From: Actinomycetospora lutea
Lineage (GTDB): Bacteria > Actinomycetota > Actinomycetes > Mycobacteriales > Pseudonocardiaceae
Length of the DNA stretch: 64,000 bases
Direction of reading: 5' to 3'
Assembly (NCBI RefSeq): GCF_028737205.1
Contig: NZ_JAQZAL010000030.1
Location: 1 to 64,000 of the forward strand
Below, one piece after another: positions 14,996 through 47,682 of the stretch (within the stretch, counting starts at the first letter, position 1; the number at the start of each line of letters is the position of its first letter). Under the pieces are notes generated by a model, which worked only from the letters and a program-made list of their open reading frames with translations, ran no database searches and was not told the DNA's origin. Position numbers and translations under genes: made by a program.

Positions 14996-15007
14996 CGCCC
15001 CGCGGCC

Positions 15008-26962: not shown

Positions 26963-28915
26963 GTGCCCGAGCGCGTCGAGCCCGAGCTCGCCGAGCTCGC
27001 CACCGCCCACGGCGTGGCGGTGCGCTACCGCGACGCCGCCGAGCGCGAGGTCGAGCTCGACCGCGGCGTCGTGCTGGACGTGCTGACCGCGCTCGACGTC
27101 GACGCGACCACGCCCGAGGCCCTGGCGTCCGCGCTGGACGCCGTGCGGTCCGCGGACCCCGACGCGCTGCCGGCGACGCTGGTGGTGGACGAGGGGTCGT
27201 CGCGGCCGCTGCCCGGCCCCGGGACGATCACCCTGGAGGACGGCACCGCGCGGTCGGTGTCGTCGGTGCCGGACGACCTGCCCGTCGGCTACCACCGGCT
27301 GGCGTGCGGCGAGCAGGACGTCGCGCTGATCGTCGCGCCGGCGCGGCTGACGCCGCCGCCGCCGACGTGGGGATGGATGGTGCAGCTCTACGCGGTGCGC
27401 TCGGAGCACTCGTGGGGCTGCGGTGACTACGGCGACCTGGCGTCGCTGCTGTCGCGCACCGCGTCGGACCAGGGTGCGGGCGCGCTGCTGGTCAACCCGC
27501 TGCACGCGCTCGCGCTGGCGCCGCAGGTCGAGCCGTCGCCCTACTCGCCGTCGAGCCGACGGTTCCTGCACCCCCTGTACGTGCGGGTGGCGGACACGCA
27601 CGCCTACGACTCGGCCCCGTCGTCAGTGCGCGCGTCCGTGGACGCGCTGCGCCCGCCGTCGGGGGACCTCGTCGACCACGAAGCGGTGTGGGCGGCGAAG
27701 CGGGCGGCGCTGGAGCTGCTGCGGCCCCACGACGACGCCGCGCCGACCGACGTCGAGGCGCTCGATCCCGAGCTGCGCGACGTCGCGACCTGGTACGCGC
27801 TGGCGGAACGCCACGGCAGCGACCTGCACACGTGGCCGGCCGGGTTGCGGCACGTGGGGGACGACGGCGTGGCGGCGGCGCGTCACGAGCTGGCGGACCG
27901 GGTGCTGTTCCACGCGTGGTGCCTGCAGCTGGCCGACGCGCAGCTGGCGGCGGCGCACGCGGCGACCGAGGGCATGGCGGTCGGGCTGATCGCCGACCTC
28001 GCCGTCGGGTGCTCGGCGGGCGGGGCGGACGCGTGGACGCTGGCGGACGCGCTGGCGCCGGGGGTGTCGGTCGGCGCGCCGCCCGACGACTTCAACCAGC
28101 AGGGCCAGGACTGGGCGCTGCCGCCGTGGCGCCCGGACGCGCTCGCCCGGTCGGGGTACGCGCCGCTGCGCTCGATGATCCGCGGGGTGCTGCGCCACGC
28201 CGACGGGCTGCGCGTCGACCACGTCGCGGGTCTCTGGCGGCTGTGGTGGATCCCGCCGGGCCGGGGCGCGCGCGAGGGCGCGTACGTGCACTACGACGCG
28301 CGGGCGATGCTCGCGGTGGTGGCGATCGAGGCCTCGCGGGCCGGCGCGGTCGTGGTGGGCGAGGACCTGGGCACCGTCGAGCCGGAGGTGACCGAGGGAC
28401 TCGCCGAGCACGGGATGCTGGGGTGCGCGGTGCTGTGGTTCCAGCGCTCCGACGACGGCGCGCTGCTCCCGCCGCGGCGGTGGCACCCCGACACGCTGGC
28501 GAGCGTCTCGACCCACGACCTGCCGACGGCGGCGGGGTTCCTGGCCGACGAGCACGTGCGGGCGCGGGCCGAGGCGGGCGTGCTCGACGACGTCGCCGAG
28601 GCGCGCGCGGCGGCGGCGCGGGACCGCTCGGAGCTGCTCGAGCTGCTGGCGTCCGAGGGGTTCGCGGTGGACGGTGACGATCCGGACGCGGTGGTCCTGG
28701 CGATGCACCGGCTGCTCGCGACGGCCCGCTCGCGCATCGTGCTGGCGGCGTTCACCGACGTCCTGGGCGACGTGCGGCAGCCCAACCTTCCCGGGACGGT
28801 CGACGCCTACCCGAACTGGCGCATCCCGCTCTCCCACTCCCTCGACGCCCTCCTGACCGACCCCCGCACCCTCGCGGTGGCCCGATCCCTACGTGAGCGA
28901 GATTCCCGGCTATAG
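26963..28915 (+). CDS. malQ: 4-alpha-glucanotransferase
   Basis: 650 residues. GH77 features: GLIADLAVGCSAGGADAW, GAPPDDFNQQGQDWALPPW, LRVDHVAGLWRLWWIP with the nucleophile Asp, VVGEDLGTV with the acid/base Glu, and VSTHDLPTAAGF. It disproportionates maltodextrins from glycogen. GTG start behind GGGAG. The last eight residues (LRERDSRL) and the TAG stop are contributed by a 46-bp palindromic repeat; the natural C-terminus probably ended near VARSL. Confidence 0.93.
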   Translation: MPERVEPELAELATAHGVAVRYRDAAEREVELDRGVVLDVLTALDVDATTPEALASALDAVRSADPDALPATLVVDEGSSRPLPGPGTITLEDGTARSVSSVPDDLPVGYHRLACGEQDVALIVAPARLTPPPPTWGWMVQLYAVRSEHSWGCGDYGDLASLLSRTASDQGAGALLVNPLHALALAPQVEPSPYSPSSRRFLHPLYVRVADTHAYDSAPSSVRASVDALRPPSGDLVDHEAVWAAKRAALELLRPHDDAAPTDVEALDPELRDVATWYALAERHGSDLHTWPAGLRHVGDDGVAAARHELADRVLFHAWCLQLADAQLAAAHAATEGMAVGLIADLAVGCSAGGADAWTLADALAPGVSVGAPPDDFNQQGQDWALPPWRPDALARSGYAPLRSMIRGVLRHADGLRVDHVAGLWRLWWIPPGRGAREGAYVHYDARAMLAVVAIEASRAGAVVVGEDLGTVEPEVTEGLAEHGMLGCAVLWFQRSDDGALLPPRRWHPDTLASVSTHDLPTAAGFLADEHVRARAEAGVLDDVAEARAAAARDRSELLELLASEGFAVDGDDPDAVVLAMHRLLATARSRIVLAAFTDVLGDVRQPNLPGTVDAYPNWRIPLSHSLDALLTDPRTLAVARSLRERDSRL

Positions 28916-28935
28916 CCGGGAATTTCGCTCACATA
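28890..28935. repeat. 46-bp palindromic repeat, copy A
   Basis: Nearly perfect palindrome centred on CTATAG (28910-28915), outer arms TACGTGAGCG/CGCTCACATA, inner arms TTCCCGG/CCGGGAA. Two non-Watson-Crick positions. It overlaps the malQ 3' end, whose stop codon is the central TAG. Flanking CCCC follows on the right, as in copy D. Confidence 0.95.
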
Positions 28936-28981
28936 CCCCGGCCGATGGAGCCGGGGACGGGGCGGGTGCGTCGAACGCCGT

Positions 28982-29947
28982 GTGGACGACCTCGACGAAT
29001 GGCAACGCCTCCTCCGTGACCAGCACGGGGTGGTGACGCGGGCGCAGCTGCGAGCTCGTGGATATACCGACCACGGGATCCAGGCCCAGATCGACGCCGG
29101 CCGCTGGCAGCGGCTGCACGACGGCGTCTACCTGACCTACTCCGGTCCGCCGACCCCGGACGCGCTGCGGAGCGGAGCCCTGCTCGCGTGCCCCAGCGGC
29201 GGCATGCTGAGCCACGAGACGGCCGCTGAGCTGCACGGCTTCGTCGAACCGAATCCGCGGCGACCCGTCCACGTGACGGTGCGGTACGGCTGCTCGGCGG
29301 TGCGGCTCGACGGTGTCAAGGTCCACCGTTCCCGAGCGTTCGCGCACATCGGCGTGGTCGGGAGCGACCCGCCACGGACGAGTCGTGCGCACACGGTCCT
29401 GGACCTCGCCGTTGCCGCACCCGACGCGCAGGAGGCGCTGCACAGGGCCCACCACCACGCCCTGGAGGCCGGAGTCCACCCGCTCGCGCTGGAGAGTGCC
29501 GTGGAGCTGCGCCGCCCGGCGCGACACCGTCGCGCCATCGCGGCCGCCGTGGCACTCCTGCGCGACGGCGTGCTGTCCGAGCTGGAGTACCGGTACCTGG
29601 TCGACGTCGAACAGGGCCACGGTCTCCCTGTCGGGCACCGCCAGGCTCCCGTGCTCGTCGACGGCGTCCGTCGATACGAGGACATCCTCTACGACATGCC
29701 CGACGGGCGGGTGATCGTGCGCCTCGACGGCTTCGGCACCCACCGTGATGCACGCACGGCCCTCGTCGACCGCCGGCGCAGCGTCACGGCTGCCGTGGCA
29801 GGCGAGCCGTCGGTGCCCTTCGGATGGGAGGAGGTCACCGCCTTTCCGTGCCGGACGGCCCGAGAGGTGGCGGCTCTCCTCCGAACTGCCGGATGGGACG
29901 GAGCGGTGGGTCCATGTGGTCTATGTGAGCGGAATTCCCGGCTATAG
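28982..29947 (+). CDS. AbiEi-type N-terminal domain protein (type IV antitoxin-like)
   Basis: 321 residues. The N-terminal 60 residues form the winged-helix AbiEi_4 antitoxin domain (QHGVVTRAQLRARGYTDHGI, RWQRLHDGVYLT). The rest is the long C-terminal part found in the many actinobacterial orphans of this family, ending in a restriction-endonuclease-like segment with degenerate catalytic residues (YEDILYDMPDGRVIVRLDGF). No AbiEii toxin gene is adjacent. Repeat copies A and B stand on either side; copy B supplies the last residues CERNSRL and the stop codon. GTG start. Confidence 0.65.
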   Translation: MDDLDEWQRLLRDQHGVVTRAQLRARGYTDHGIQAQIDAGRWQRLHDGVYLTYSGPPTPDALRSGALLACPSGGMLSHETAAELHGFVEPNPRRPVHVTVRYGCSAVRLDGVKVHRSRAFAHIGVVGSDPPRTSRAHTVLDLAVAAPDAQEALHRAHHHALEAGVHPLALESAVELRRPARHRRAIAAAVALLRDGVLSELEYRYLVDVEQGHGLPVGHRQAPVLVDGVRRYEDILYDMPDGRVIVRLDGFGTHRDARTALVDRRRSVTAAVAGEPSVPFGWEEVTAFPCRTAREVAALLRTAGWDGAVGPCGLCERNSRL

Positions 29948-29967
29948 CCGGGAATTCCGCTCACATG
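29922..29967. repeat. 46-bp palindromic repeat, copy B
   Basis: 44 of 46 bp form a perfect palindrome (29923-29966); only the outermost pair differs. Central CTATAG gives the TAG stop of the AbiEi-like gene on the plus strand; the arm sequence GTGAGC gives the TGA stop of the glycosyltransferase gene on the minus strand. Probably a bidirectional terminator hairpin. Confidence 0.95.
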
Positions 29968-30791
29968 GGGAGGGCGTCCACGGCGGAGACGCCGCGGTCG
30001 GGGAGGGCGGTCGGGGATTCCTGGTGATATGCGCCGCCGGGCAGGATGCCCGCCGCGCCGGACCGCGCCATCACCTGCTGCTGCGAGTACACGTCCTCGC
30101 CGTGCGCGTCGGGGGGCAGGTCGCGCCAGAACTCGAACCCGCCGGCCTCGACCAGCGCGGCGCGGTCGAACAGCACGCACCCCGCCACCCAGGCCACCTT
30201 GTACGCCACGTAGCGCTCCGCCGGGGGGAGGGCACGCCCCGGCCCGTCGAGATCCAACGACTCCGCCAGGTGCAGCCCGTTCGCCGCGTTGTGCAGGCGC
30301 CAGCGCTCCCAGCCCGGGCCGTCCTTGACCAGCGTCTCCGGCTGCACGTGCCCGGACCACCGCTCGAACGACGTCACCTCGTGCGGGCGCCGGTCCTCGG
30401 CGTGCCCGAGCGCCTGCATCGCCGCGCCGACCATCCCGCAGCGCAGCTCCCCCAGCGCCCGGTGCAGCCGCGCGAGCGCGCCGGGCTCGAGCCACACGTC
30501 GTCGTCGAGGTAGAGCACCGCGGGCGCCGACGCGCACGACAGCAGGAACGCGCGCTGCTCGGCCATCCCGCGCGGCGGCAGGTGGCGGTGCAGCGCGACC
30601 TCGACGCCGCGCCGCTGCAGCCACCGGATCACCGTCCGCGCCGAGGGCGTCGCCCACGAGGGGTCGCCGTCGGACTGGTCGGAGATCGTCAGCGAGAAGT
30701 CCACCCCGCTCTGCGCGGCGAGCCCGGCCAGCGTGGTCGCCAGCTCCACGGGGCGCCCCCGGGTCGGGACGAGCACATCGACGTCAGCCAC
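29961..30791 (-). CDS. family 2 glycosyltransferase
   Basis: 276 residues with GT-A fold signs: DVDVLVPTRGRPVELATTL at the N-terminus, the metal-binding APAVLYLDDDVWLEPGAL (DDD) near residue 95, and a later GEDVYSQQQV (ED). The acceptor is unknown. It overlaps the hldE gene by 8 bp and ends inside palindrome copy B. Its position at the tail of a heptose cluster suggests a role in assembling a heptose-containing surface glycan. Confidence 0.82.
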   Translation of the reverse strand: MADVDVLVPTRGRPVELATTLAGLAAQSGVDFSLTISDQSDGDPSWATPSARTVIRWLQRRGVEVALHRHLPPRGMAEQRAFLLSCASAPAVLYLDDDVWLEPGALARLHRALGELRCGMVGAAMQALGHAEDRRPHEVTSFERWSGHVQPETLVKDGPGWERWRLHNAANGLHLAESLDLDGPGRALPPAERYVAYKVAWVAGCVLFDRAALVEAGGFEFWRDLPPDAHGEDVYSQQQVMARSGAAGILPGGAYHQESPTALPDRGVSAVDALPM

Positions 30792-32337
30792 CCCGGATCC
30801 GCTCCACGATCGCGCTCGTCGAGCGGTCGGGCAGGTAGTCCAGGATGACGACGCGCCCGCCGTACGCGCCGACGGTCGCGGACTCGCGCAGCATCTCGGG
30901 CGTGTAGTCCCCGCCCTTGGCGTACACGTCGGGCCGCAGCAGCTCGAGCAGCTCGGCGGGGGTGTCGTCGTCGAACACGGTGACGTGGTCGACGCAGCTC
31001 AGTGCCCCGATCACCGCCGCCCGGTCGGCGAGGGAGTTGACCGGGCGCGACGGGCCCTTGAGCCGGGCCACCGAGTCGTCGGAGTTCAGCGCCACGATCA
31101 GGACGTCGCCGAGGCGCTTGGCCTGGTTGAGCGACGCGACGTGCCCGCGGTGCACGACGTCGAAGCAGCCGTTGGTGAACACCACCCGCCGGCCCGCGAC
31201 ACGCTGCTCGTCGACGATCGCGGCGAGCGACGTGGCGTCGAGCAGCGGGCCCTCCGCGGCGGCGACGCGCTCGGCGAGCTCGCCGGTGCCGCACACCGAG
31301 GTCCCGGGCCGTCCCACCACCACGTCGGCGGCCGCCTGGGCCAGCTCGACCGCGGTCGCGGCCGGGGTGCCCGCGGCCAGCGCGAGCACCAGCGCGGCGG
31401 TGAACGTGTCGCCCGCACCGCAGGTGTTGGCCTCCGGCGCCGGGCGGGCGAACGTCCGGTGCGCGGGCGCGTCGCGGTCGGCGGGCAGCAGCAGCGCGCC
31501 GTCCCGGTCGAGGGTGACGACGACCGCGCCCGCCGCGGAGCGTTCGCGCAGCTCGGGGCCGGCGGCCTCGGCGGCGGCGACCCGGTCGGGCCCGCCGAGC
31601 TCGCGGCCCAGCAGCCGCGCGACCTCGCCCGCGTTCGGGGTGACGACGTCGGGGCGCGCCGGTGCCCAGCGCGCCGGGTCGTGGGCGTCGACGACGAGCC
31701 GGCAGGCCCGCTGGCCCGGCGCGCCGAGCAGCTCGCCGAGCAGGTCGGCGGCACCGTCGAGCGCGCCGCCGTCGTAGTCGCACACGACGACCGCGTCCGC
31801 GCCGACGACCACGCGGCGCAGCGCGGCGTGCAGGGCCTCGCGCGCCGCCGCGTCCAGCGGGGCGCGCGACGAGGTGTCGAAGCGGGCGACCAGCGCGTCG
31901 TCGGCGAGCACGCGGCGCTTGGCCGCGGTCGGGCGCGTCGGGTCGGTGACCACGCCGTCGATGCCGACGCCGTGGGACGTGAGCAGCTCGCGCACGGTCG
32001 CCGCGTCGGCGTCGTCGCCGAGCACCGAGACCAGCTCGGTGCGCGCGCCGAGGGCGGCGAGGTTGGCCGCGGTGTTGGCCGCGGCGCCGGGCGAGCCGCG
32101 CGTGTGGTCGACCTCGACGACCGGCACCGGGGCCTCGCGCGAGAGCCGTCGCGACGGGCCGGTCAGCCACTGGTCGAGCACGGCGTCGCCGAGCACGACC
32201 ACGCGCGGGGCGGTCGCCGCGAGGCGCGCGGGCAGGTCGGCGGCGAGCGGGGCGGCGGTGAGCGGGGGCGTCGCCGACGCGAGTGTCGTCGACGGGGGTG
32301 TCGCGGTCCCGCAGCGCGCGATCTCGGGCGCAGCCAT
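30784..32337 (-). CDS. hldE: bifunctional heptose-7-phosphate kinase / heptose-1-phosphate adenylyltransferase (copy 1)
   Basis: 517 residues. The N-terminal ribokinase-fold domain (about 45-345) has GSPGAAANTAANLAALG and the catalytic NTCGAGDTFTAAL. The C-terminal nucleotidyltransferase (about 375-510) has TNGCFDVVHRGHVASLNQAK and AKGGDYTPE. It makes ADP-heptose from heptose 7-phosphate together with GmhA and GmhB. The ATG was preferred to a TTG one codon earlier. A second, diverged copy is encoded at 33553-34965. Confidence 0.88.
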   Translation of the reverse strand: MAAPEIARCGTATPPSTTLASATPPLTAAPLAADLPARLAATAPRVVVLGDAVLDQWLTGPSRRLSREAPVPVVEVDHTRGSPGAAANTAANLAALGARTELVSVLGDDADAATVRELLTSHGVGIDGVVTDPTRPTAAKRRVLADDALVARFDTSSRAPLDAAAREALHAALRRVVVGADAVVVCDYDGGALDGAADLLGELLGAPGQRACRLVVDAHDPARWAPARPDVVTPNAGEVARLLGRELGGPDRVAAAEAAGPELRERSAAGAVVVTLDRDGALLLPADRDAPAHRTFARPAPEANTCGAGDTFTAALVLALAAGTPAATAVELAQAAADVVVGRPGTSVCGTGELAERVAAAEGPLLDATSLAAIVDEQRVAGRRVVFTNGCFDVVHRGHVASLNQAKRLGDVLIVALNSDDSVARLKGPSRPVNSLADRAAVIGALSCVDHVTVFDDDTPAELLELLRPDVYAKGGDYTPEMLRESATVGAYGGRVVILDYLPDRSTSAIVERIRGG

Positions 32338-32480
32338 CAACGATCCGTCCTTCCGGGGGAACCCGCACGGGTGCTGTCGGCGGAACGCGTTCCCGCCGCT
32401 CGGCGCTCGGAGGGCGGCCTCGGTACTGTCGCCCTTCGTTCTGTCACCGACGGGGTGACCCGCCCGTCCCGGGAGCGCCG

Positions 32481-32849
32481 ATGGCCGACGACCAGCCCAC
32501 GCCCGACACCCGCGGCGTCTCCGCCAGTCTCGTGAGCCCGGAGGTGGCGGTCGTGCGCCCGGTCGGCGACGTCGACACGGCCACCGCGTCGCCGCTGCGC
32601 TCCGCGATCCACGAGCAGGTGCAGGCCGGCGCCCGGCACGTGGTGCTGGACCTCTCCGGCGTCGAGTTCATGGGCTCGGCGGGGCTGGCGCTGCTCATCG
32701 CCGAGCGCGAGGCCGCGATCAGCCGGGAGGGCGAGCTGCGTCTGGCCGGGGTGCCGCGCACCGCGGGACGGGCGCTGAGCCTCACCGGTCTCACCGAGCT
32801 GTTCGACACCTACCCCGACGCCGACGCGGCGGCCGCCGACCTGCGCTGA
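32481..32849 (+). CDS. STAS anti-sigma factor antagonist (orphan)
   Basis: 122 residues. STAS core: VAVVRPVGDVDTATASPLRS, VVLDLSGVEFMGSAGLALLI (Ser in GSAG) and LSLTGLTELFDTYPDADAA. It is RsbV-like but lacks its own RsbW neighbour; it is divergent from hldE and converges on the SDR gene. ATG preceded by GGGAGCGCCG. It probably feeds one of the two nearby SigF modules; which one is not visible. Confidence 0.83.
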   Translation: MADDQPTPDTRGVSASLVSPEVAVVRPVGDVDTATASPLRSAIHEQVQAGARHVVLDLSGVEFMGSAGLALLIAEREAAISREGELRLAGVPRTAGRALSLTGLTELFDTYPDADAAAADLR

Positions 32850-32869
32850 CCCCTGTGTAGAGGAGCAGC

Positions 32870-33556
32870 TCACGGGTACGAGCCCTCCTCCGACGAGGTG
32901 GCCACCAGCTCGCGGATCTCGCTGCCCGCGGGCCGGGTGAGCGCGTAGAGCACCGCGTCGGCGGTCTGCGCCGGGTCGTTGAGCTTGGCGTCGGCGCCGG
33001 GCTTGTACTGGTCGGGGCGGTCGTCGAAGAAGTGCGTCCACATGCCGCCGGGGATCAGCAACGTCACCCCGACCCGCCCGGCGGTCTCGGCGGCCAGCGC
33101 GCGGGTGAAGCCGACGACGCCGAACTTCGACGCGCAGTAGGCGGTCGCGTCGGACACCGCCTTGACCCCGAGCGTCGAGGACACGGTGACGACCTTGCCG
33201 CGGCGCGCATCGAGCTCGGGCAGGGCCGCGCGGACCACCGCGGCGGTGCCGAGCAGGTTCACCGCGATCACGCGGTCCCACTCGCCGGGGTCGACGTCGA
33301 CGAGCGTGCCGCAGCGGTCGATGCCGGCGGCGGTGACGACGGCGTCGAGCCCGCCGACCTGCTCGCTCGCGCGGGCCACGGCCGACTCGGCGGCGCGGGG
33401 GTCGGCGAGGTCGACCTCGACGAAGGCGTGCCCGGCGTCGGGCGCCTTGAGGTCGAGCACCACGGGGGTGCCGCCCGCGGCGACGACGGCGTCGGCCACG
33501 GCGGCGCCCAGGCCGGACGAGCCGCCGGTGACGAGGACGGTACCGGGGTCGGTCAT
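32870..33556 (-). CDS. short-chain dehydrogenase/reductase
   Basis: 228 residues. Cofactor motif TGGSSGLGAAVADA, active-site Ser in VTVSSTLG and YxxxK as YCASKFG. DLKAPDAGHAF after β2 (acidic Asp) favours NAD+. The start overlaps the stop of hldE2 (ATGA), so it belongs to the heptose operon and may modify a nucleotide-sugar or aglycone; the substrate is unknown. Confidence 0.85.
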   Translation of the reverse strand: MTDPGTVLVTGGSSGLGAAVADAVVAAGGTPVVLDLKAPDAGHAFVEVDLADPRAAESAVARASEQVGGLDAVVTAAGIDRCGTLVDVDPGEWDRVIAVNLLGTAAVVRAALPELDARRGKVVTVSSTLGVKAVSDATAYCASKFGVVGFTRALAAETAGRVGVTLLIPGGMWTHFFDDRPDQYKPGADAKLNDPAQTADAVLYALTRPAGSEIRELVATSSEEGSYP

Positions 33557-34965
33557 GACGGATCTCCCTCGAGAACGGGGTCGGTGGTCGGGTCGAGACG
33601 GGCCAGCAGGCGGGTCGACGAGCGGCCCGCGTGGTACGGGACCGCGACGACCTCGCCGCCCCAGCTGCGCACCAGGGGGGTCTCGAGCAGTTCGTCGGTG
33701 GCGTAGTCGCCGCCCTTGACCCACACGTCGGGGCGCAGGCGGTCGAGCACGGCGCGCGGGTCGTCCTCGTCGAACACCTCGACGGCGTCGACCGACGCGA
33801 GCGCGGCGAGCATCTCGGCACGGTCGGCCTCGGCGACCACGGGCCGGTCGGGGCCCTTGAGCCGGCGGACCGAGGCATCGGAGTTCAGGCAGACGACCAG
33901 CACGCCGTCGTCGCCAGCGAGCTGTCGGGCGGCGGCCAGGGTCCGGGCGTGCCCGGCGTGCAGGAGGTCGAAACAGCCGCCGGTGGCGACGACGGTGGCG
34001 CCGCGGGCGCGGGCGGCCGCGACGACGTCGGTCCCCGGTTCCGGGGCGTCGGGCTCGTCGTCCAGCCCGGCGGCCCCGCCGGCGGCGACGAACGCGGCGG
34101 CGTCGGCGACGGCCCGGCGCACGGCGTCGTCGACGGCCGAACCCTCGGCGAGGGCGACCGCGACGCTCGCGGCGAACCGGTCGCCGGCGCCGCAGGGGTC
34201 GCCGCCGGTCGCGGGCGCGGCGGGCGTCACCGAGGTGCCGGTGGCGCTGCGCAGGACCGCGCCGTCGCGGCCGGCGGTCACGGCGACGGCGTCGACGCCC
34301 CAGTGCTCGCGCAGCGCGTCGCCGAGCGCGGCGGGTTCGGCCGGGAACCCATGTGAGCGAAATTCCCGGCTATGGCCGGGAATTTCGCTCACATAGCCAC
34401 GCGCCTCGGCCATGTTCGGGGTGACGAGGGTGGCGCCGGGGACGGGCGCGGCGCCGTGCGGGTGCGGGTCCCAGACGACGGGGACCCGGGTCGCCGCCGA
34501 CGTCAGGGCCGCGCGCACCACGGGGTCGGCGGTCATCCCGCGCCCGTAGTCCGACACGAGCACCACGCCGGCGCCGGCGATCGCGTCGGCGATCTGCGCG
34601 CCGGCCGCGAACGGAGCCAGCCCGCCGTCGTCCACCCGCAGCAGCACGCGGTCGTCGGCGAGCATCCGGGTCTTGGTCGGGGTGCTGCCCTCGGCGTCGA
34701 CCGCCACGACGTCCACGCCGGCCAGCAGGGCGCGCATCTCGTCGGCGTCCGCCCCGAGCGCGGTCACCAGCCGCACCGGGCGGCGCGTGCTCCGCGCGGC
34801 GAGCAGGGCGGTCAGGCCCGCGCCGCCGGGGCGCTCGCGACGCCCGGCAGCCGCGAGCACCGGCGCGGGCGCGTCCGGGCACAGCCGCTCCACGGCGCCG
34901 ACCACGTCGACGTCGCGCAGGCAGTCACCGACCACCACGATCGAGGCGCGCGTGCGGGGGCTCAC
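33553..34965 (-). CDS. second HldE-like kinase/nucleotidyltransferase, carrying an in-frame palindrome insertion
   Basis: 470 residues. Kinase half: RERPGGAGLTALLAA, VSDYGRGMTAD, GDPCGAGDRFAASVA. Nucleotidyltransferase half: ATGGCFDLLHAGHARTLAAA and VKGGDYATDE. A 46-bp palindrome lies inside the gene and is read through as VSEIPGHSREFRS between TPNMAEARGY and HGFPAEPAALGD (about residues 191-206), a surface-loop position right after the conserved TPN..EA. GTG start overlaps the gmhA stop (GTGA). Being a paralogue, it may use another sugar phosphate than copy 1. Confidence 0.85.
   Translation of the reverse strand: MSPRTRASIVVVGDCLRDVDVVGAVERLCPDAPAPVLAAAGRRERPGGAGLTALLAARSTRRPVRLVTALGADADEMRALLAGVDVVAVDAEGSTPTKTRMLADDRVLLRVDDGGLAPFAAGAQIADAIAGAGVVLVSDYGRGMTADPVVRAALTSAATRVPVVWDPHPHGAAPVPGATLVTPNMAEARGYVSEIPGHSREFRSHGFPAEPAALGDALREHWGVDAVAVTAGRDGAVLRSATGTSVTPAAPATGGDPCGAGDRFAASVAVALAEGSAVDDAVRRAVADAAAFVAAGGAAGLDDEPDAPEPGTDVVAAARARGATVVATGGCFDLLHAGHARTLAAARQLAGDDGVLVVCLNSDASVRRLKGPDRPVVAEADRAEMLAALASVDAVEVFDEDDPRAVLDRLRPDVWVKGGDYATDELLETPLVRSWGGEVVAVPYHAGRSSTRLLARLDPTTDPVLEGDPS
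34350..34395. repeat. 46-bp palindromic repeat, copy C (inside hldE2)
   Basis: Same element as copies A, B, D and E, centre CTATGG, one T-G wobble near the centre and one outer mismatch. The loss of the central TAG (CTATGG, CCATAG on the coding strand) does not matter here because the gene uses the reading phase GTG-AGC-GAA, open across the entire element. Confidence 0.95.
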
Positions 34966-38001: not shown

Positions 38002-38052
38002 CGGCGAGGTATTGGTACCGCGTCGAACCGGTAAACGCCGCCGACCGAACTA

Positions 38053-39683: not shown

Positions 39684-39755
39684 GGCCGGCCAGCACACCA
39701 CGCCGACGGGCCGCCCGCGACCCGCGACACGGGGCACCCGCCCGACCTGGGCGTC

Positions 39756-39780
39756 GGTTTGTGGTCAGGGGCCCCGGGTA
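39756..39780 (+). promoter_or_regulatory. SigF-type promoter of the rsbW2-sigF2 operon
   Basis: GGTTT (39756-39760) and GGGTA (39776-39780) with a 15-nt spacer fit the actinobacterial SigF consensus exactly. The transcript would start near 39788, about 65 nt before the TTG start. This predicts that the sigma factor encoded downstream activates its own operon. Confidence 0.8.
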
Positions 39781-39852
39781 CACGCCGGGAGACCGGAACC
39801 TCGCCGGTCCGTCCGACGCCCCCGTGGGCGAGACCGACCAGGAGGAACCCCG

Positions 39853-40389
39853 TTGATCCGCCCCCAGCCGCCCGAGGACCGGGCCCCGGGTGCGCCGCGT
39901 GACGTCGAAGTGCGTGTCCTGCCGGTGCCGGAGGCGCTCGTCACCGTGCGCACCGTCGCCGGCGACCTCGCGGCACGCGCCGAGTTCCCCCTGGACTCGG
40001 TCGACGACCTCCGACTCGCGGTGGACGAAGCGTGCACGTGCCTCGCCGCGCTCGCCCGTCCCGGGACCCGACTGACCGTCACCTTCGCCGTCGACGACGA
40101 GCGGATCACCATGACCGCGTCGGTGCTCACGACCGGGCCGACGACGCTGCCGACCGACACCTTCGCGTGGCGCGTGCTCTCCGTGCTCGCCGACGACGTC
40201 CGCGTGCTCGCCGCGGCGCCGTCGAGCCGCGGCGAGGCGCACCGCCTGGCGCTGCGGGTGATCGTCGAGCGCGCCACCGACGTCCCTCTCGAGGACGTGC
40301 TGCCCGACACGGGCGCCGCCGAGCCCGCCGGCGAGACGGCGGCGGTGGCCCTGCTGTCCGACCGCAGGCCGCGGTCCGCGGGGCCGTGA
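39853..40389 (+). CDS. RsbW-type anti-sigma factor (module 2)
   Basis: 178 residues. The ATPase-like core contains DDLRLAVDEACTCLAALA and LPTDTFAWRVLSVLADD, paralogous to module 1. TTG is chosen as the start because AGGAGG lies 7 nt before it and no ATG or GTG fits. A C-terminal extension of about 45 residues is not in module 1. The stop overlaps the sigma factor start (GTGA), so the pair is translationally coupled. Confidence 0.82.
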   Translation: MIRPQPPEDRAPGAPRDVEVRVLPVPEALVTVRTVAGDLAARAEFPLDSVDDLRLAVDEACTCLAALARPGTRLTVTFAVDDERITMTASVLTTGPTTLPTDTFAWRVLSVLADDVRVLAAAPSSRGEAHRLALRVIVERATDVPLEDVLPDTGAAEPAGETAAVALLSDRRPRSAGP

Positions 40390-41357: not shown

Positions 41358-41361
41358 GGCC

Positions 41362-42315
41362 GTGAGCTCGCCGACGGCCGTGGTCCTGCGCGACCTCGGC
41401 CTCGGCGACCTGCTCGTCGCGGTGCCCGCGCTGCGCCTGCTGCGCCGCGCGCTCCCGGACCACGAGATCGTCCTCGTCGCCCCGCAGGCCCTCGCCCCGG
41501 TGGTCTCCCTGGTCGAGGCGGTGGACACCCATGTGAGCGAACTTCGGGGCTATAGCCCCGAAGTTCGCTCACGTACCCCGGACCTCGCCGTCAACCTCCA
41601 CGGCGCGGGGCCGCAGAGCCACGCGCGGTTGGCGGCGCTGGGCGCCCGGCGACAGATCGGGCACGCCGCGCCCGGGTGGGACGGGCCGGCGTGGTCCGAC
41701 GACCCCGCCCGCCCCGAGCGCCGCCGCTGGTGCGACCTGCTCGCCGACGCCGGACTCGTCAGCCCCGAGACGGCCGCCGGCGCCGCCGACGACCTGCACC
41801 TCCCCGGCCGGCGCGCCGTCCCCGGCGGGTCCGTCGTCGTGCACCCCGGCGCCGCGTACGGGTCGAAGCGCTGGCCCGCGGCCCGGTTCGCGGTGTGCGC
41901 GGCCGCGCTGCAGGCCCGGGGCCACCCCGTGGTCGTCACCGGCGGCGACGACGAGCGGCGCCTGACCGCCGAGGTCGTCGCCCGCGCGGGCCTGCGGCCC
42001 GACGCCGACCTCGGCGGGCGCACCGACCTCGCCGGCCTGCTCGACCTCGTCGCCGCCGCGTCGCTCGTGATCGCCGGCGACACGGGGATCAGCCACGTCG
42101 CCACGGCGTTCGGGACCCCCTCGGTGACGCTGTTCGGGCCCGTCCCGCCGACCCGGTGGGGGCCGCCGCCCGGCGCCGCGCACGTCGTCCTGGGCGACGA
42201 CCGCGCCCGCCGCGGCGACCGCTTCGCCGACGTCCCGGACCCCGCGCTGCTGGCCGTGGGCCCCGAGGACGTGCTGGCCGCGCTCCCGTCCCTGCCCGGC
42301 GGCGTCCCGGCCTAG
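41362..42315 (+). CDS. family 9 glycosyltransferase (copy 2), carrying an in-frame palindrome insertion
   Basis: 317 residues, GTG start 4 bp after sigF2. GT9 signs: VVLRDLGLGDLLVAVPALRLLRR, DLAVNLHGAGPQSH, VVVHPGAAYGSKRWPA, IAGDTGISHVATAFGTPSVTLFGPVPPTRW. Palindrome copy D adds HVSELRGYSPEVRSR (about residues 57-71) directly before the conserved PDLAVNLHG, yet the frame remains open. Probably a heptosyltransferase of the cluster. Confidence 0.87.
   Translation: MSSPTAVVLRDLGLGDLLVAVPALRLLRRALPDHEIVLVAPQALAPVVSLVEAVDTHVSELRGYSPEVRSRTPDLAVNLHGAGPQSHARLAALGARRQIGHAAPGWDGPAWSDDPARPERRRWCDLLADAGLVSPETAAGAADDLHLPGRRAVPGGSVVVHPGAAYGSKRWPAARFAVCAAALQARGHPVVVTGGDDERRLTAEVVARAGLRPDADLGGRTDLAGLLDLVAAASLVIAGDTGISHVATAFGTPSVTLFGPVPPTRWGPPPGAAHVVLGDDRARRGDRFADVPDPALLAVGPEDVLAALPSLPGGVPA
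41530..41575. repeat. 46-bp palindromic repeat, copy D (inside a GT9 gene)
   Basis: Centre CTATAG; inner arms are CTTCGGGG/CCCCGAAG instead of ATTCCCGG/CCGGGAAT, a set of paired changes that keep the stem. Two outer mismatches. Read in the same phase as copy C (GTG-AGC-GAA), so the central TAG is out of frame. Confidence 0.95.
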
Positions 42316-42326
42316 CATCGGCGCCC

Positions 42327-43136
42327 GTGAGGCTGCGCTACGAGCTCCTGGGCTGCGCGCTGCACGGGCACGCGCTCGTGGGCACCGACGCGGCCACGGT
42401 GCGGGCGCAGGACGCGCTGCTGGTGCGCCAGGACGCCGACGGACTGCGCTGGTACCGGTGCCTGCGCTGCGACGCCTGGGAGCCCGGCGCGCCGCCCGCC
42501 GCGCCCGCCCGCGACACCGTCCCGGGCCCCGACGGGATCGAGGTGCCCCTGCGCGGGCGCCCGCTGCGCGACCGCTTCGTCCTGCGCCTCATCGCCCTCG
42601 ACCGCGCCCTGCACGTCGTGGGCCTCACGCTGCTCGCCACCGCCGTGCTGCTCTTCGCCGCCTACCGCGAGGCGTGGGGCCCGACGGCCGGGCGGATCGT
42701 CGGGGTGCTCCAGGGCGCCCTCGGCGGACCGGTCGGGCACGGCGGGCCGACGCTGCTCGTCGAGGTCGAGCGCGCCTTCGCCGTCCCCGACCGCACGCTG
42801 CACTGGCTCGCGGCCGCCCTGCTCGCCTACGCGGTGCTCGAGACCGTCGAGGCCGTCGGCCTCTGGTACGCCCGCCGCTGGGCGGAGTACCTGACCTTCG
42901 TCGCCACCATGGTGCTGCTCGTGCCCGAGGTCTGGGAGCTCAGCCACGGGCCGACCCCGACGAAGATCGTCGCGCTGGTCGTCAACCTCGCCGTCGTCGC
43001 CTACCTGCTCGTCGCCAAGCGCCTGTTCGGGCTGCGCGGCGGCGGGCGCGCGGAGGAGGCCGAGCGGGCGCACGACACCGGGTGGGCGGCGGTCGAGCGC
43101 ACCGGGCCGGGCGCCGATCGGCTGACCGCGGGCTGA
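42327..43136 (+). CDS. DUF2127 membrane protein
   Basis: 269 residues. A short N-terminal part with CxxC (YRCLRCDAW) precedes four hydrophobic segments in a DUF2127 arrangement: LHVVGLTLLATAVLLFAAY, LHWLAAALLAYAVLETVEAVGLW, AEYLTFVATMVLLVPEVWEL and KIVALVVNLAVVAYLLVAKRLF. Function unknown. GTG start 11 bp after the GT9 gene. Confidence 0.75.
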   Translation: MRLRYELLGCALHGHALVGTDAATVRAQDALLVRQDADGLRWYRCLRCDAWEPGAPPAAPARDTVPGPDGIEVPLRGRPLRDRFVLRLIALDRALHVVGLTLLATAVLLFAAYREAWGPTAGRIVGVLQGALGGPVGHGGPTLLVEVERAFAVPDRTLHWLAAALLAYAVLETVEAVGLWYARRWAEYLTFVATMVLLVPEVWELSHGPTPTKIVALVVNLAVVAYLLVAKRLFGLRGGGRAEEAERAHDTGWAAVERTGPGADRLTAG

Positions 43137-43321
43137 CGACCCGTCCCGTGCCCGTGGCGACCGGCGATCAGGGCGCGTCCCGGGACCGTGAGCACCGCAG
43201 GGGGGAACCTCCCGAGCCATTCGGTAGCACGACAGGACCCGTCGGCCCTGTCGGAGGATCCTCGCCACGAGAGACCGGCCGGATTCGGTTGTGGGCGAGC
43301 GGGGCGGGGTACGTCCGCCGG

Positions 43322-44242
43322 GTGCGCCTTCTCTTGTCCACCCGCGTCCCGGCCGCCGTCCGGGGCGTGGTCTCGAGCGTCGTGGAGACCTTGCGCGGGC
43401 GCGACCTCGCCGCCGTCGCGGCCGGCCTGACCTACTTCGCCGCGCTCGGGGTCGTCCCCTGGCTGCTGCTGGCCGTGTGGGGCGCGGCGCTGATCAGCTC
43501 GCCGGCGACGGTCGCCGCCTATCTCGCCGACCTGCGCCTGCTCGTGCCGCCGGAGATGGGCGCGCGCCCGGTGTGGGACGCCCTCGTGCGCGCCGGGCTC
43601 GACCTCGGCCCCTGGGGCGCGCTGATCACGATCTTCCCCGCGACGTTCTACGGCGAGGGCCTGCGCCGCGCCTGCCTGCGCCTCGCGCCGCGCCACGACC
43701 GCTTCACCGGCTGGCGCGCCCGGCTCGCGCTGCTGCCGCTCGTGCTCGCCGTCCCCGTGCTCGCGCTCGGGGTGTTCGCGAGCGCGCCGCTGCTCGGTGA
43801 CCTCGCCCGCACCGGAGGGGTCGCCGGCACGCTGGGGTGGGTCGTCGTCGCCTTCCACGTCTCGTTCGTCGCGCTCGGCGTCGTCATCGCCTGGGGCTTC
43901 CGCGTCGTCGCGCCCGGCCGCCTCGGGTGGCCGGCCTCGCTGATCGGGGCGTTCGGCACGGCCGCGGTGGTCGGGGGCTTCCTGCAGGGCTTCCTGCTGT
44001 TCCTCGCGCTGCCGATCGACCTCGGCATCCCGTTCGGCGGGCTCGACGTCATCGGGGCCACGGTGGCGGTCGCCCTGTGGCTGTTCGTGCTGCACGTCCT
44101 GCTGCTGGTCGGGTGGACGGCGACCGACGCGCTCGACCGGCGGTGGCGCACTCCCGGGCCGCCCGCGGACGCGGGGACGGAGAACGGGACGGAGGCCGGG
44201 ACGGGGATGCCCGCGCCGGCCCTCGCGGGAGCCGGCCGGTGA
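43322..44242 (+). CDS. YihY/BrkB-family membrane protein
   Basis: 306 residues with six or so membrane helices. The family opening is seen in GRDLAAVAAGLTYFAALGVVPWLLLA, then ITIFPATFYGEGLRRACLRL, and a C-terminal hydrophilic tail rich in Gly/Thr/Glu. YihY proteins are of unsettled function; they are not RNase BN. It is the first gene of a GTGA-coupled operon with cruF, cruG and crtD. Confidence 0.8.
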   Translation: MRLLLSTRVPAAVRGVVSSVVETLRGRDLAAVAAGLTYFAALGVVPWLLLAVWGAALISSPATVAAYLADLRLLVPPEMGARPVWDALVRAGLDLGPWGALITIFPATFYGEGLRRACLRLAPRHDRFTGWRARLALLPLVLAVPVLALGVFASAPLLGDLARTGGVAGTLGWVVVAFHVSFVALGVVIAWGFRVVAPGRLGWPASLIGAFGTAAVVGGFLQGFLLFLALPIDLGIPFGGLDVIGATVAVALWLFVLHVLLLVGWTATDALDRRWRTPGPPADAGTENGTEAGTGMPAPALAGAGR

Positions 44243-45078
44243 ACGTCCTCGCCCCCGTCCGCACCTACTTCGCCCACCTCCCCCGCCGCCACCTCGTGCC
44301 CTGGCTGCTCGGCGCGGGCGCGGTGGCCGTGCAGATCGCGTTCCCGCTGACCGGCGGCGGGACCCCGACGCTGACCGTCGTCTCGGTCGCGCTCTTCGCG
44401 CTGGCCTCGGTGAGCCACGCCCTGCTCGCGCGGGGGCCCGGCGCGGCGGTCGGGCTGGTCGTCGTCGCCGCCGGCGGCGGGCTCGTGATCGAGGCCGTCG
44501 GGCTCGCCACCGGCCTGCCGTTCGGCGAGTACCGCTACACCGACGCGCTCGGCCCGTCCCTGCTCGGCGTCCCGCTCGTGGTGCCGGCGGCCTGGACGAT
44601 GATGTCCTACCCCGCGCTGGTGGTCGGCCGACGCCTCGCGACCGCGCTCGGCCGGGGCCGGGGCGCCACGACCGTCCTCGGCGCCTGGGCGCTCGCGAGC
44701 TGGGACGTGTTCCTCGACCCGCAGATGGTCGACGCCGGCAACTGGTACTGGCTCGATCCCACGCCCGCGCTGCCCGGCGTGCCCGGCATCCCGGTCTCGA
44801 ACTTCGCCGGGTGGCTGCTCGTCTCGCTGGTCATGATCGCCGCGCTCGACCGCGTCATGCCGGCGGGCCCGGCCACCGACGACCGCCTGCCCCTGGCGCT
44901 GTGGCTGTGGACGTTCCTGTCCTCGACGATGGCCGCCGCGGTCTTCTTCGGGCGCCCGACCGTGGCGCTGGTCGGCGGCCTGCTCATGGGTCTCGTCGGC
45001 GTCCCGCTCATCGTCGTCCTGCGCCTCCACGGCAGCGCTGCCGCGCCCGCGCCGACCCGGCAACGGATCGCGGCGTGA
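44239..45078 (+). CDS. cruF: CruF-like carotenoid 1',2'-hydratase (DUF422)
   Basis: 279 residues, strongly hydrophobic, of the carotenoid biosynthesis DUF422 family: GLPFGEYRYTDALGP, ASWDVFLDPQMVDAGNWYW and GIPVSNFAGWLLVS are diagnostic. CruF adds water to the acyclic end of lycopene- or γ-carotene-type carotenoids. GTG start overlaps the YihY stop; its own stop overlaps the next GTG. Confidence 0.85.
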   Translation: MNVLAPVRTYFAHLPRRHLVPWLLGAGAVAVQIAFPLTGGGTPTLTVVSVALFALASVSHALLARGPGAAVGLVVVAAGGGLVIEAVGLATGLPFGEYRYTDALGPSLLGVPLVVPAAWTMMSYPALVVGRRLATALGRGRGATTVLGAWALASWDVFLDPQMVDAGNWYWLDPTPALPGVPGIPVSNFAGWLLVSLVMIAALDRVMPAGPATDDRLPLALWLWTFLSSTMAAAVFFGRPTVALVGGLLMGLVGVPLIVVLRLHGSAAAPAPTRQRIAA

Positions 45079-46166
45079 GGGCCGCGGTCACCGTCGGCTC
45101 GATCCTCGCCGGGGCCTCGCTGGCCCTCACCGTCGACAACCTGCGCCGCGTGCGCGTCCCCGACCCGGCCGCCGCGCCGCCCCGTGAGCGCGTCGCCGTG
45201 CTCGTCCCGGCGCGCGACGAGCAGGAGCAGATCGGCGGCTGCGTGCGCGCGCTGCGCGCCGCGGTGGAGCGCTGGCCCGTCCCCGCCGAGATCCTGGTGC
45301 TCGACGACGGCTCCACCGACGCGACGGCCGCGCACGCCCGCGAGGCCGGGGCGCGGGTGCTCGACGGCGCCCCGCCCCCGCCGGGGTGGCTCGCCAAGCC
45401 CTGGGCCTGCCGCCGGCTGGCCGACGCCACCCGCGCCGACGTGCTCGTCTTCGTCGACGCCGACGTCCGCGTCGCCCGGCACGGCCTCGCCGCCACGGTC
45501 GACCTGCTGCGCCGCAGCGGCCTCGACCTGGTCTGCCCGCACCCGCACCAGCTCGCCGTCACCCCCGCGGAGCGCCTCGTGCAGCCGCTGCTCGCGTGGT
45601 CCTGGCTCGCGACGCTGCCGCTGGGGATCGCCGAGCGCTCGCCCCGGCCCATGCTCACCGCGGCGAACGGGCAGCTGCTCGCCGTCGACGCCCGCGCCTA
45701 CCGCGCCGCCGGCGGGCACCCGCGCGCCGCGGTCCTCGACGACATCGCCCTGCTGCGCACGCTGAAGCGCCACGGGTTCCGGGGTGTCGTCGCCGACGGC
45801 ACCGGCGTCGCGAGCTGCCGCATGTACCGGGACGGGCAGGAGCTGCGCGCGGGCTACACGAAGTCGCTGTGGGCGGCGTTCGGCACCCGGCCGCGGGCCG
45901 GCGCGGTGATCGCGCTGCTCGGGCTCGTGCACGTCGTCCCGGCGGTCGCGGCCCTGGGCGGGTCGCGGGTCGGGCTCGCGGGCTACCTCGCGGGCGTGGC
46001 GAGCCGCGCGCTGGCGGCGCGGCGCACCGGCGCGCGGGTCGCCGACGCGGTGGCGCACCCGGTCTCGGTGCTCGTGCTCGCGGCGCTCACCGCGGACTCG
46101 TGGCGGGCGCGCCGCGCGGGGACCCTGCGCTGGCGCGGGCGCCCCGTGACCCCCGCGGCGGCATGA
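45075..46166 (+). CDS. CruG-like membrane-bound family 2 glycosyltransferase
   Basis: 363 residues. GT2 core: RVAVLVPARDEQEQIGGCVR, ILVLDDGSTDATAA, DVLVFVDADVRVARHG (DAD), AVLDDIALLRTLKRHG (acid/base Asp) and membrane helices at the C-terminus. In carotenoid clusters this protein lies next to cruF and glycosylates the hydroxyl made by it. Coupled by 4-bp overlaps on both sides. Confidence 0.82.
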   Translation: MRAAVTVGSILAGASLALTVDNLRRVRVPDPAAAPPRERVAVLVPARDEQEQIGGCVRALRAAVERWPVPAEILVLDDGSTDATAAHAREAGARVLDGAPPPPGWLAKPWACRRLADATRADVLVFVDADVRVARHGLAATVDLLRRSGLDLVCPHPHQLAVTPAERLVQPLLAWSWLATLPLGIAERSPRPMLTAANGQLLAVDARAYRAAGGHPRAAVLDDIALLRTLKRHGFRGVVADGTGVASCRMYRDGQELRAGYTKSLWAAFGTRPRAGAVIALLGLVHVVPAVAALGGSRVGLAGYLAGVASRALAARRTGARVADAVAHPVSVLVLAALTADSWRARRAGTLRWRGRPVTPAAA

Positions 46167-47662
46167 GCACCGCCGTCGTCGTCGGCGCGGGGCTCGGCGG
46201 GCTGGCGGTCGCGGCCCGGCTCGCGGCCGAGGGCCACGCGGTGACGGTGCTGGAGCAGGCCGAGCGGGTCGGCGGCAAGCTCGGGACGGTCGAGGTCGGC
46301 GGGTACCGCTTCGACACCGGGCCCTCGCTGGTGACGATGCCGCCGGTGCTCGAGCGGCTGTTCGCCGACACCGGCGCACCGCTGCGCGACGTGCTCGACC
46401 TGGAGCCGCTCGACGTCGCCGCCCGCTACCGCTTCGGGGACGGCACCGTGCTCGACCTGCCCGGACGGCGCGCCGCGGTCCCCGACGCCCTCGACGCGGC
46501 CCTCGGCGGCGGGGCCGGTGACCAGTGGGCGGGCTTCCTGGACCACGCCGAGCGCGTCTGGCACGCGACGCACGAGCACTTCCTGGAGTCGCCGGTCTCC
46601 CCCGCCGGGCTCGCGCGGCTCTCGCTGCGCGGGCGCGACCTGCTCGCCGTGGCGCCCTGGCGCAGCCTGCGCGGGGTCGGCGCGCGGTACCTGCGCGACG
46701 AGCGCCTCGGCATGCTGCTCGACCGGTACGCGACCTACTCGGGCTCCGACCCGCGCCGCGCGCCCGCCGCGCTGGCGGTCGTGCCGTACGTGGAGCAGGA
46801 GTTCGGGTCCTGGTACGTGCGCGGCGGGTTGCGGCGGCTCGCGGAGGCGGTGGCGCAGCGGTGCCGCACGCTGGGCGTCACGGTGCGGACCGGCGCCCGC
46901 GTCGAGGCGATCGAGGTGCACGGCGGGCGCGCGGGCGGGGTGCGGCTGGCCGCCGGGGAGCGCCTGCGCGCCGACGTCGTGGTGGCCAACGCCGACGCCG
47001 CGACGGTCTACGGGCCCGGCGGGCTGCTCCCGCACCGCGCGCAGTCTCGCCGGCTGCACCGGGCGACGCCCTCGTCGTCGGGGTTCGTGCTGCTGCTCGG
47101 GCTGGCCGGGCGCGACCCCGCGACCCCGCACCACCGCGTGCTCTTCCCGCGGACGCGCGCGGCCTACGACGCCGAGTTCGACGCCTACCGGCGCGGGGCA
47201 CCGGCCGCGTCGCCCGCGGTGTACGTGCACGCGCCCGACGACCCGGCGCTGCGACCCGGCGAGGACGCCGAGACGTGGTTCGTGCTCGTCACGGCGCCGC
47301 GTCACGACCCCGGGGGCGGTGTGGACTGGGACGCGCCCGGGCGGGCGGCGCGCTACGCCGACCGCGTCCTCGCGCTCATGGCGCAGCGCGGCGTCGACGT
47401 GCGCGACCGCGTCCGCCACCGCGTCGTCCGCACACCCGCCGACCTCGAGCGCGAGACCCGCTCGCCCGGCGGCAGCATCTACGGGACGTCGTCGGACGGC
47501 GCGCTCGCGGCGTTCCTGCGCCCGGCGAATCGCTCGCCGGTCGACGGGCTCTACCTCGTCGGCGGCTCCGCCCACCCCGGCGGCGGCCTGCCCCTCGTCA
47601 CCCTGTCCGCCGAGATCACGGCCCGGCTGATCGGCGTACGTGAGCGAAATTCACGGCTATAG
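46163..47662 (+). CDS. CrtI/CrtD-type carotenoid desaturase
   Basis: 499 residues. FAD motif VVVGAGLGGLAVAARLAAEG, substrate segment GGYRFDTGPSLVTMPPV and C-terminal VDGLYLVGGSAHPGGGLPLV mark the phytoene desaturase family. With cruF and cruG next to it, a 3',4'-desaturase (CrtD) is the best guess. The last residues RERNSRL and the TAG stop come from palindrome copy E; the native end was probably near ARLIG. Confidence 0.85.
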   Translation: MSTAVVVGAGLGGLAVAARLAAEGHAVTVLEQAERVGGKLGTVEVGGYRFDTGPSLVTMPPVLERLFADTGAPLRDVLDLEPLDVAARYRFGDGTVLDLPGRRAAVPDALDAALGGGAGDQWAGFLDHAERVWHATHEHFLESPVSPAGLARLSLRGRDLLAVAPWRSLRGVGARYLRDERLGMLLDRYATYSGSDPRRAPAALAVVPYVEQEFGSWYVRGGLRRLAEAVAQRCRTLGVTVRTGARVEAIEVHGGRAGGVRLAAGERLRADVVVANADAATVYGPGGLLPHRAQSRRLHRATPSSSGFVLLLGLAGRDPATPHHRVLFPRTRAAYDAEFDAYRRGAPAASPAVYVHAPDDPALRPGEDAETWFVLVTAPRHDPGGGVDWDAPGRAARYADRVLALMAQRGVDVRDRVRHRVVRTPADLERETRSPGGSIYGTSSDGALAAFLRPANRSPVDGLYLVGGSAHPGGGLPLVTLSAEITARLIGVRERNSRL

Positions 47663-47682
47663 CCGTGAATTCCGCTCACGTA
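47637..47682. repeat. 46-bp palindromic repeat, copy E
   Basis: Centre CTATAG, one mismatch only (A opposite C, G expected). Inner arms TCACGG/CCGTGA: again a paired change relative to TCCCGG/CCGGGA. It supplies the TAG stop of the desaturase (+) and the TGA stop of the phosphatidyltransferase (-), like copy B. Confidence 0.95.

Follow-up and report, generated by a model that had tools for sequence, protein, structure and literature searches.

Five copies of a short palindrome that differ in the stem, each with both arms matched, raise a simple question: are they hairpins under selection, or copies of a spreading repeat that comes in several types? They lie in a 64,000-nucleotide stretch of Actinomycetospora lutea (positions 1 to 64,000 of contig NZ_JAQZAL010000030.1, hereafter the window), for which the original prediction, made from the sequence alone, had described a 46-bp palindromic element (copies A to E; Table 1) and had taken the paired stem differences to mean selection on structure (or hairpin-templated repair) rather than simple sequence spread. 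All five copies were found where they had been placed, with inner stems TTCCCGG in A, B, and C, TTCGGGG in D, and TTCACGG in E, each with a matching mate arm; copies A and E have one non-Watson-Crick stem pair each. The copies belong to a repeat family of fixed length, which lies mainly at gene 3' ends and is copied as whole units. At fixed sites, related species carry unlike cores that still pair, and the palindromes are linked, with matching of types, to the gene between copies A and B. We consider it probable that this is a family like the repetitive extragenic palindromic (REP) sequences, that has a core of constant length (40 bp) and a dedicated partner protein encoded by that gene.

A palindromic repeat family with a 40-bp core

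A pattern search of the window returned 10 matches, which are the five places on both strands (shuffled sequences: mean 0.02, maximum 2). A scan for near-perfect 40-base palindromes, which assumes no particular sequence, likewise found only copies A to E in the window, and shuffled versions of all the regions scanned gave a single match. The predicted hairpin is thus present, but the conserved length is 40 bp rather than 46 bp, as the outer three bases pair barely above expectation. The core consists of an 18-bp stem and a 4-nt loop, mostly TATA or a near variant, with ends GTGAG/CTCAC. To assess length, we used the window plus 20 syntenic stretches that were not chosen by palindrome (442,636 bases of unselected DNA). 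When lengths 24-100 were scanned there, all 29 palindromes with these ends were 40 bp long and none had any other length. The proportion was 204/212 in a larger set, whose loci were largely fetched with a fixed-length pattern. Across 32 diverse cores, G1, T2, G3, G5, and C18 and their mates are invariant, giving a shared GTG.G start and C.CAC end, while stem pairs 8 to 16 each use three or four of the Watson-Crick pair kinds. In these cores, which were selected as near-palindromes, 97.2% of cells pair and two-sided changes occur at 13 of the 18 pairs.

The family extends well beyond the window. The 6.53-Mb genome holds 85 forward matches at up to three mismatches (reversed control, 0 and 1), so the earlier statement that the other 45 kb are free of copies holds for the window at this pattern, but not genome-wide. 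Five copies are a local excess, since 0.83 would be expected per 64 kb (Poisson ~0.002 for one window). The predicted clustering therefore stands as an excess, but not as restriction to a glycan/carotenoid region; two of the five copies flank the candidate partner gene, and no tie between the excess and the glycan/carotenoid genes emerged. Pattern matches occur in all 17 congeners searched, and the matches listed include at least 105 loci in named genomes (55 in Actinomycetospora, 35 in three Pseudonocardia genomes, 14 in Saccharopolyspora, and 1 in another member of the Pseudonocardiaceae). A covariance model built from the 32 cores, the search that had originally been proposed, matched 91 of 249 Pseudonocardiaceae genomes, which represent 22 of the 46 genera (E up to 1e-4), and 11 of 200 genomes drawn from across the order, three of them outside the family Pseudonocardiaceae (E up to 1e-6). 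In relatives, the sequence is a repeat that keeps its pairing, not ordinary non-repeated DNA. We found no description of the repeat family in the open-licence PMC literature, a search that did not cover the link between gene and palindromes.

Most copies lie between genes, at their 3' ends. Among 200 unique copies, 179 are in loci with gene calls, and these comprise 95 in convergent gaps, 65 in tandem gaps, 7 in divergent gaps, 6 within genes, and 6 at edges, vs 199, 729, 348, 6140, and 24 of 7440 random positions. Counting one copy per orthologous site (n = 125) gives 64 convergent, 47 tandem, 5 divergent, 4 in-gene, and 5 edge sites; these counts describe the GTGAGCG/CTATRG type best because most copies came from that pattern. 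The 125 sites have 175 gene ends, with 58 stop codons inside the element, 76 up to 16 nt away, 17 up to 40 nt away, and 24 farther. The upstream stop is the nearer one in 55 of the 65 tandem copies. Closeness to stops is partly due to short gaps, because convergent gaps are similar with and without elements (the gap minus 40 has a median of 10.5 with an element vs 17 in pairs without).

All five window copies form GC-rich hairpins (z -7.3 to -8.3). An RNA role is possible from their position and stability, and copies at gene 3' ends may also act as RNA hairpins. Weighing against such a role, an intrinsic-terminator test found no U-run after the hairpins. The only Rfam matches above the gathering score in the window are four tRNAs. 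The copies inside genes show that cells may just tolerate many copies. Only one frame of the core is open, and it is the frame used by all 16 in-gene copies scored, many of which are orthologs at sites C and D. The in-gene share is 2/5 in the window vs 4/125 across sites. In the predicted structure of the hldE-like product, a weak model (mean pLDDT 68.5), the part encoded by the element (about residues 191-206) falls between two helices, in blocks whose pLDDT is 64 and 49, which would fit a loop. In A. lemnae, a single two-module non-ribosomal peptide synthetase gene (L094, 1479-7913) contains two unlike in-frame palindromes.

The dyad symmetry, fixed length, and conserved outer and central bases are also what would be expected of binding sites for a dimeric chromosome protein, with all sites following as its specificity drifts. 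We give this idea very little credence: several unlike stem types coexist in one genome, divergent-gene gaps hold only 5 of the 125 sites, and the complete G003 chromosome has no clear regional bias (51 positions among the matches listed; Kolmogorov-Smirnov p 0.084).

Unlike cores at fixed sites and copying of whole units

Orthologous sites with unlike but still paired cores are stronger evidence than the differences among A to E. Site C, in the hldE-like gene, is filled in 7 of 12 genus genomes (G000-G011) and site D in the same 7, and both copies are absent from G001, G003, G007, and G010, where the host proteins are also less similar; G004 gave no information on either site. The pattern search added an eighth genome with copy C (L109). 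Copies C and D thus sit at an identical codon in 8 and 7 genomes, respectively, with flanks conserved to the base. At the hldE site, the cores begin GTGAGCGAAATTCCCGG in G000, GTGAGTGGAATTCCCGG in G011, GTGCGTGATCTTCTGAG in G005 and G006, and GTGAGCGAACTTCGGTG in G002, each with its own mate arm and with flanks aligned to the base; the G009 copy is decayed. Across the seven distinct rows of this alignment, five of which were retrieved through their flanks alone (the exceptions are the window and L109), pairing is kept in 92.9% of cells and two-sided changes occur at 8 of 18 pairs, while slid versions reach at most 47.6%. Sites A, B, D, and E behave in the same way.

To generalize, we compared 73 orthologous pairs (83 minus nine duplicates and one within-gene pair). 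Flanks are 84.7% identical and cores 69.1%; two pairs have identical cores, and 50 have at least 10 of 40 bases changed. Among 1314 pair positions, 834 are unchanged, 320 are changed on both sides and paired in both members, 116 are changed on one side, and the remaining 44 are changed on both sides and unpaired in one or both members.

The same stems also recur at unrelated loci. Among the matches listed for the window's genome, 56 copies include 32 with perfect stems, most often AACTTCGGGGC (11 copies) or AAATTCCCGGC (8 copies), and a mismatched stem (GGGG vs GGTG) recurs at 7 of the 56 places. Since both a mismatched stem and the stem types recur at unrelated loci, whole units must have been copied. 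The type GTGCGTGATCTTCTGAG matches 51, 30, 21, 12, 7, and 1 times in six congeners but never in the window's genome. Ten G110 copies, picked for equal model score, share one common stem in unrelated flanks. As a separate observation, the bases flanking these copies (L218-L227) also pair, by eye for 12 further bases in L222. The compensated changes of the original prediction are therefore real, and relatives keep the pairing; what fails is their use as an argument against sequence spread, because each stem type marks a subfamily that recurs at unrelated loci. More broadly, selection on structure does not necessarily follow from compensated changes between copies of a repeat.

Whole-unit copying also bears on whether arms might simply correct each other by fold-back, or whether these are ordinary look-alike terminators. 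Strong hairpins right at stop codons suit this explanation, which we nevertheless regard as hardly credible. Among 50 copies listed for the complete G003 genome, 35 lack symmetry and a single imperfect core is found four times; the fixed length, the identical copies at many loci, and the missing U-run speak against it as well. In the 35 asymmetric copies, both arms are known elsewhere in 17, one arm in 14, and neither in 4. Repeat identity excludes fold-back or terminators as the whole account; fold-back correction may act in addition.

Resident units also seem to be overwritten in place. The differences at fixed sites could instead have arisen vertically, with old insertions under RNA-hairpin selection accumulating compensatory point mutations and no overwriting. 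Orthologs do keep their pairing, as the hldE site illustrates, and some pairs differ by few paired changes (e.g., L007 and L037). We think this very improbable, given that an identical 40-mer, GTGCGTGATCTTCTGAGCTATAGCTCAGAAGATCACGCAC, occurs at several unrelated sites of G005 and G006, and that GTGCGTGATCTTCTGAGCTATAGCTCAGAAGATCACGCAC is also identical between G011 and G005 at the glycosyltransferase family 9 (GT9) site, where flanks are 83.5% identical; recurrent identical mismatches likewise need copying. Another possibility is that hot spots, chiefly convergent gaps, are hit afresh in each species. The strong preference for convergent gaps, two elements in tandem at site E of G009, and a G006 copy where six congeners have none would all agree with repeated insertion. 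It is nonetheless very improbable in our judgment, because C and D occupy the same codon between base-for-base conserved flanks in 8 and 7 genomes, respectively, because only targeting would bring each loss and reinsertion back to the same base and frame, and because precise empty sites were not seen in the genomes examined.

A candidate partner gene and how palindromes may spread

The gene between copies A and B had not been recognized in the original prediction as going with the family. It is the largest cluster among 326 proteins that adjoin palindromes. Palindromes of other types surround its orthologs in A. callitridis, G005, G006, and G011, and in G009, where the gene is cut by the border of the stretch, there is one palindrome on each side. 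In a sample of 21 hand-picked genomes (15 carriers of the palindrome and 6 non-carriers), a homolog at E up to 1e-8 is present in 14 of 15 carriers and in none of the 6 non-carriers. The 19 close homologs (112 bits or more) are found in 12 of 15 carriers and again in 0 of 6 non-carriers; 16 of them are flanked on both sides by palindromes no more than 216 bp from the aligned part, and three on one side. Of the 365 genes in the unselected DNA, 37 adjoin a palindrome on either side, and three, namely the partner gene and two orthologs, do so on both sides, vs 0 of the 362 other genes.

The flanking palindromes also match in type. The two palindromes flanking a gene, left and right, differ from each other at a median of 3 of 40 positions (20 genes), vs 17 between genes (760 comparisons). 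In G003, G006, G014, and G015, paralogs of the same genome have types that differ from one another at 11-24 positions. G006 has two types at the window's sites and two genes, with one type flanking each gene. In G003, one of the two close homologs is broken by stops, and the many asymmetric copies in that genome could be read as a sign that a partner was lost.

Weak homologs (under 70 bits) lack palindromes in 9 of 11 cases, and the other two, L251 and L253, adjoin imperfect hairpins with GTGCGGC ends; general hairpins lie beside 1 of 11 weak homologs (L253) vs 2 of 60 random stretches. The GTGCGGC hairpins are at 1416 in L251 and at 1406 and 2418 in L253. Because these two distant homologs adjoin other hairpins, the wider protein family may have more cognate repeats. 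Elsewhere, contig C9 of G006 (around 160707, 166374, 172663, and 199343) carries palindromes of a second type, which have GTG(A/C)GTG ends and loops resembling CCCA, in places mostly palindrome-free in congeners; its likely gene is on contig C16.

The partner protein combines an AbiEi-like head with a putative PD-(D/E)XK nuclease-like tail. Pfam AbiEi_4 scores 24.5 for the window protein, against a cut-off of 25, and 27.4 for the G006 ortholog, and PADLOC AbiEi models match down to E 5.6e-20; NCBIfam gave no match, nor did a profile search of PDB sequences with the partner family. A structure model built from 16 sequences (mean pLDDT 89.5) matches AbiEi 6y8q in Foldseek (E 9e-6), and the head is probably DNA-binding. 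The modeled tail resembles 3hrl (prob 0.99, TMt 0.72, E 0.12) and the homing endonuclease I-Bth0305I (3r3p; prob 0.91-0.93, TMt 0.67-0.70, E 0.21-0.26), and TnsA is also among the nuclease folds below significance. The presence of DUF559 in the distant homolog L252 points toward a nuclease-like tail, as the fold does; the tail may have nuclease activity. Residues E202, E210, H213, E233, D234, D249, H254, and D263 are invariant. A term look-up in two papers, including PMC6006769, returned neither AbiE nor DUF559.

Could the gene instead be carried along passively, as an AbiEi-type regulator or defence gene whose cassette is insulated by hairpins of the family that spread by other means? AbiEi is a known antitoxin family, PADLOC AbiEi models match the protein, and three carriers lack a close homolog. 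We consider this unlikely, since it hardly explains why left and right palindromes match in type, why paralogs of the same genome have their own types, or why no other gene in the unselected DNA is flanked on both sides.

We therefore return to a REP-like family with its own partner protein and propose, tentatively and at slightly less than even odds, that AbiEi-head homing-endonuclease-like proteins spread the palindromes and overwrite rivals, each with its own type, so that subfamilies compete for stable sites across the Pseudonocardiaceae. In the overwriting mechanism that we infer, the partner protein would recognize a palindrome and make or guide a break, and repair would then copy the own-type palindrome into a new site or over a resident one. 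Copies would persist mainly at gene 3' ends and occasionally inside genes, in the single open frame. If break and repair copy the whole palindrome, both arms would change together while the flanks stay, and a DNA-binding head, a nuclease-like tail, and an own palindrome are what homing of palindromes into occupied sites would want.

Several points weigh against this account. A trans-acting break alone does not explain how a 40-bp core is copied between unrelated flanks. Two carriers, G104 and G112, have weak homologs only, and G212 has none; the commonest G003 types flank neither of its two close homologs. The nuclease-like Foldseek matches have E-values of 0.12-0.26, and only two AbiEi chains reach 0.001. 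DUF559 is above the cut-off only in L252, and the lone match in a close homolog has E 0.15. Linkage reduces the 73 ortholog pairs to no more than 22 groups, of which three come from a single assembly or a single gene, and a pair entered the set only when each of its members was a near-palindrome. Finally, none of 25 orthologous palindrome-free places is a clean empty site or has a target duplication: net differences there are 23-27 bp (G010 at C and D), 39, 47, or 59-74 bp, or negative, and the places compared offered no usable empty site for the target-site duplication criterion of miniature inverted-repeat transposable elements.

Table 1. Palindrome copies and associated genes in the window
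Feature	Position	Strand	Context
Copy A	28890..28935 (core 28893-28932)	.	Upstream of partner gene; 3' end of malQ-like gene 26963-28915 (+), TAG stop in loop
Copy B	29922..29967 (core 29925-29964)	.	Convergent gap: partner gene (+, TAG stop in loop) vs 29961-30776 (-, TGA stop in right arm)
Copy C	34350..34395 (core 34353-34392)	.	Within hldE-like gene; in-frame minus-strand translation YVSEIPGHSREFRSHG
Copy D	41530..41575 (core 41533-41572)	.	Within glycosyltransferase family 9 gene; in-frame plus-strand translation HVSELRGYSPEVRSRT
Copy E	47637..47682 (core 47640-47679)	.	Convergent gap: 46100-47662 (+, TAG stop in loop) vs 47676-48305 (-, TGA stop in right arm)
malQ-like 4-alpha-glucanotransferase gene	26963..28915	+	3' end in copy A
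Candidate partner gene (321 aa)	28982..29947	+	AbiEi-like head, PD-(D/E)XK nuclease-like tail; between copies A and B
hldE-like gene (PfkB kinase and cytidylyltransferase domains)	33553..34965	-	Hosts copy C in variable loop
Glycosyltransferase family 9 gene	41380..42315	+	Hosts copy D in variable loop
Flavin amine oxidoreductase gene	46100..47662	+	3' end in copy E

In the window, the partner gene has malQ-like and glycosyltransferase genes as neighbors. Two other loci were observed. A selenocysteine locus (9413-18204) comprises tRNA-Sec (9413-9508), a molybdopterin oxidoreductase, iron-sulphur and NrfD subunits, and then SelA and SelB; the oxidoreductase is split into two frames at a TGA (10126-10128) and is formate-dehydrogenase-like by context. 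A phage-integrase-like gene (57150-57908) lies downstream of tRNA-His and tRNA-Lys genes.

Comparison with known systems

In-frame palindromes inside genes recall the Rickettsia palindromic elements, described in a review as palindromic repeats of ~150 bp that lie in frame within genes (PMC10969869). The elements here differ in that they are 40 bp long and only 4 of 125 sites are in genes. With AbiEi antitoxins and DUF559 proteins, the partner protein shares a head that matches AbiEi in sequence and fold and distant homologs that carry DUF559, but unlike them, close partner homologs are flanked by their own palindromes.

A further likeness is to I-Bth0305I, a Vsr-like homing endonuclease. The modeled tail fold resembles its catalytic domain (3r3p), and in-place overwriting would be expected of homing. 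Unlike I-Bth0305I, the partner has an AbiEi-like head, and what would be copied is a 40-bp palindrome present at many sites rather than the allele of the gene itself.

The textbook case of a short palindrome with a dedicated enzyme is that of REP sequences and RAYT transposases. Like them, the family described here is a many-copy short palindrome, mainly extragenic, which supplies stop codons and has some copies in genes, and a dedicated gene is flanked by its own repeats, but here the protein is unrelated. REP sequences are described as many short palindromes in convergent or tandem gaps, some supplying a stop codon and some in genes (PMC3733652; PMC1525189), and REPINs show compensatory hairpin changes, with each group beside its own RAYT gene (PMC3116915). 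The original prediction had recognized no known REP, and judged by the tag this was correct: neither GTAG nor CGTC was found in the 32 diverse cores, whose ends are symmetric (GTGAG/CTCAC). The Y1 transposase domain PF01797 was found in none of 18 genus genomes (G000-G017), nor in carriers G021 and G030. It is present in 6 of 61 genomes, which have no pattern match, while two of the six have 3 and 5 model matches. We rejected a RAYT linkage because PF01797 is absent from the genus genomes and the partner gene is unrelated to Y1 by Pfam. In this family, unlike REP/RAYT, stem types also swap at fixed sites, and fixed sites with whole-core swaps are a natural record of replacement. If our proposal is true, this would be a second REP/RAYT-like pair with an unrelated protein. 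It would show that such an arrangement has more than one origin, and a single small protein with its cognate DNA would suffice to test how short palindromes spread.

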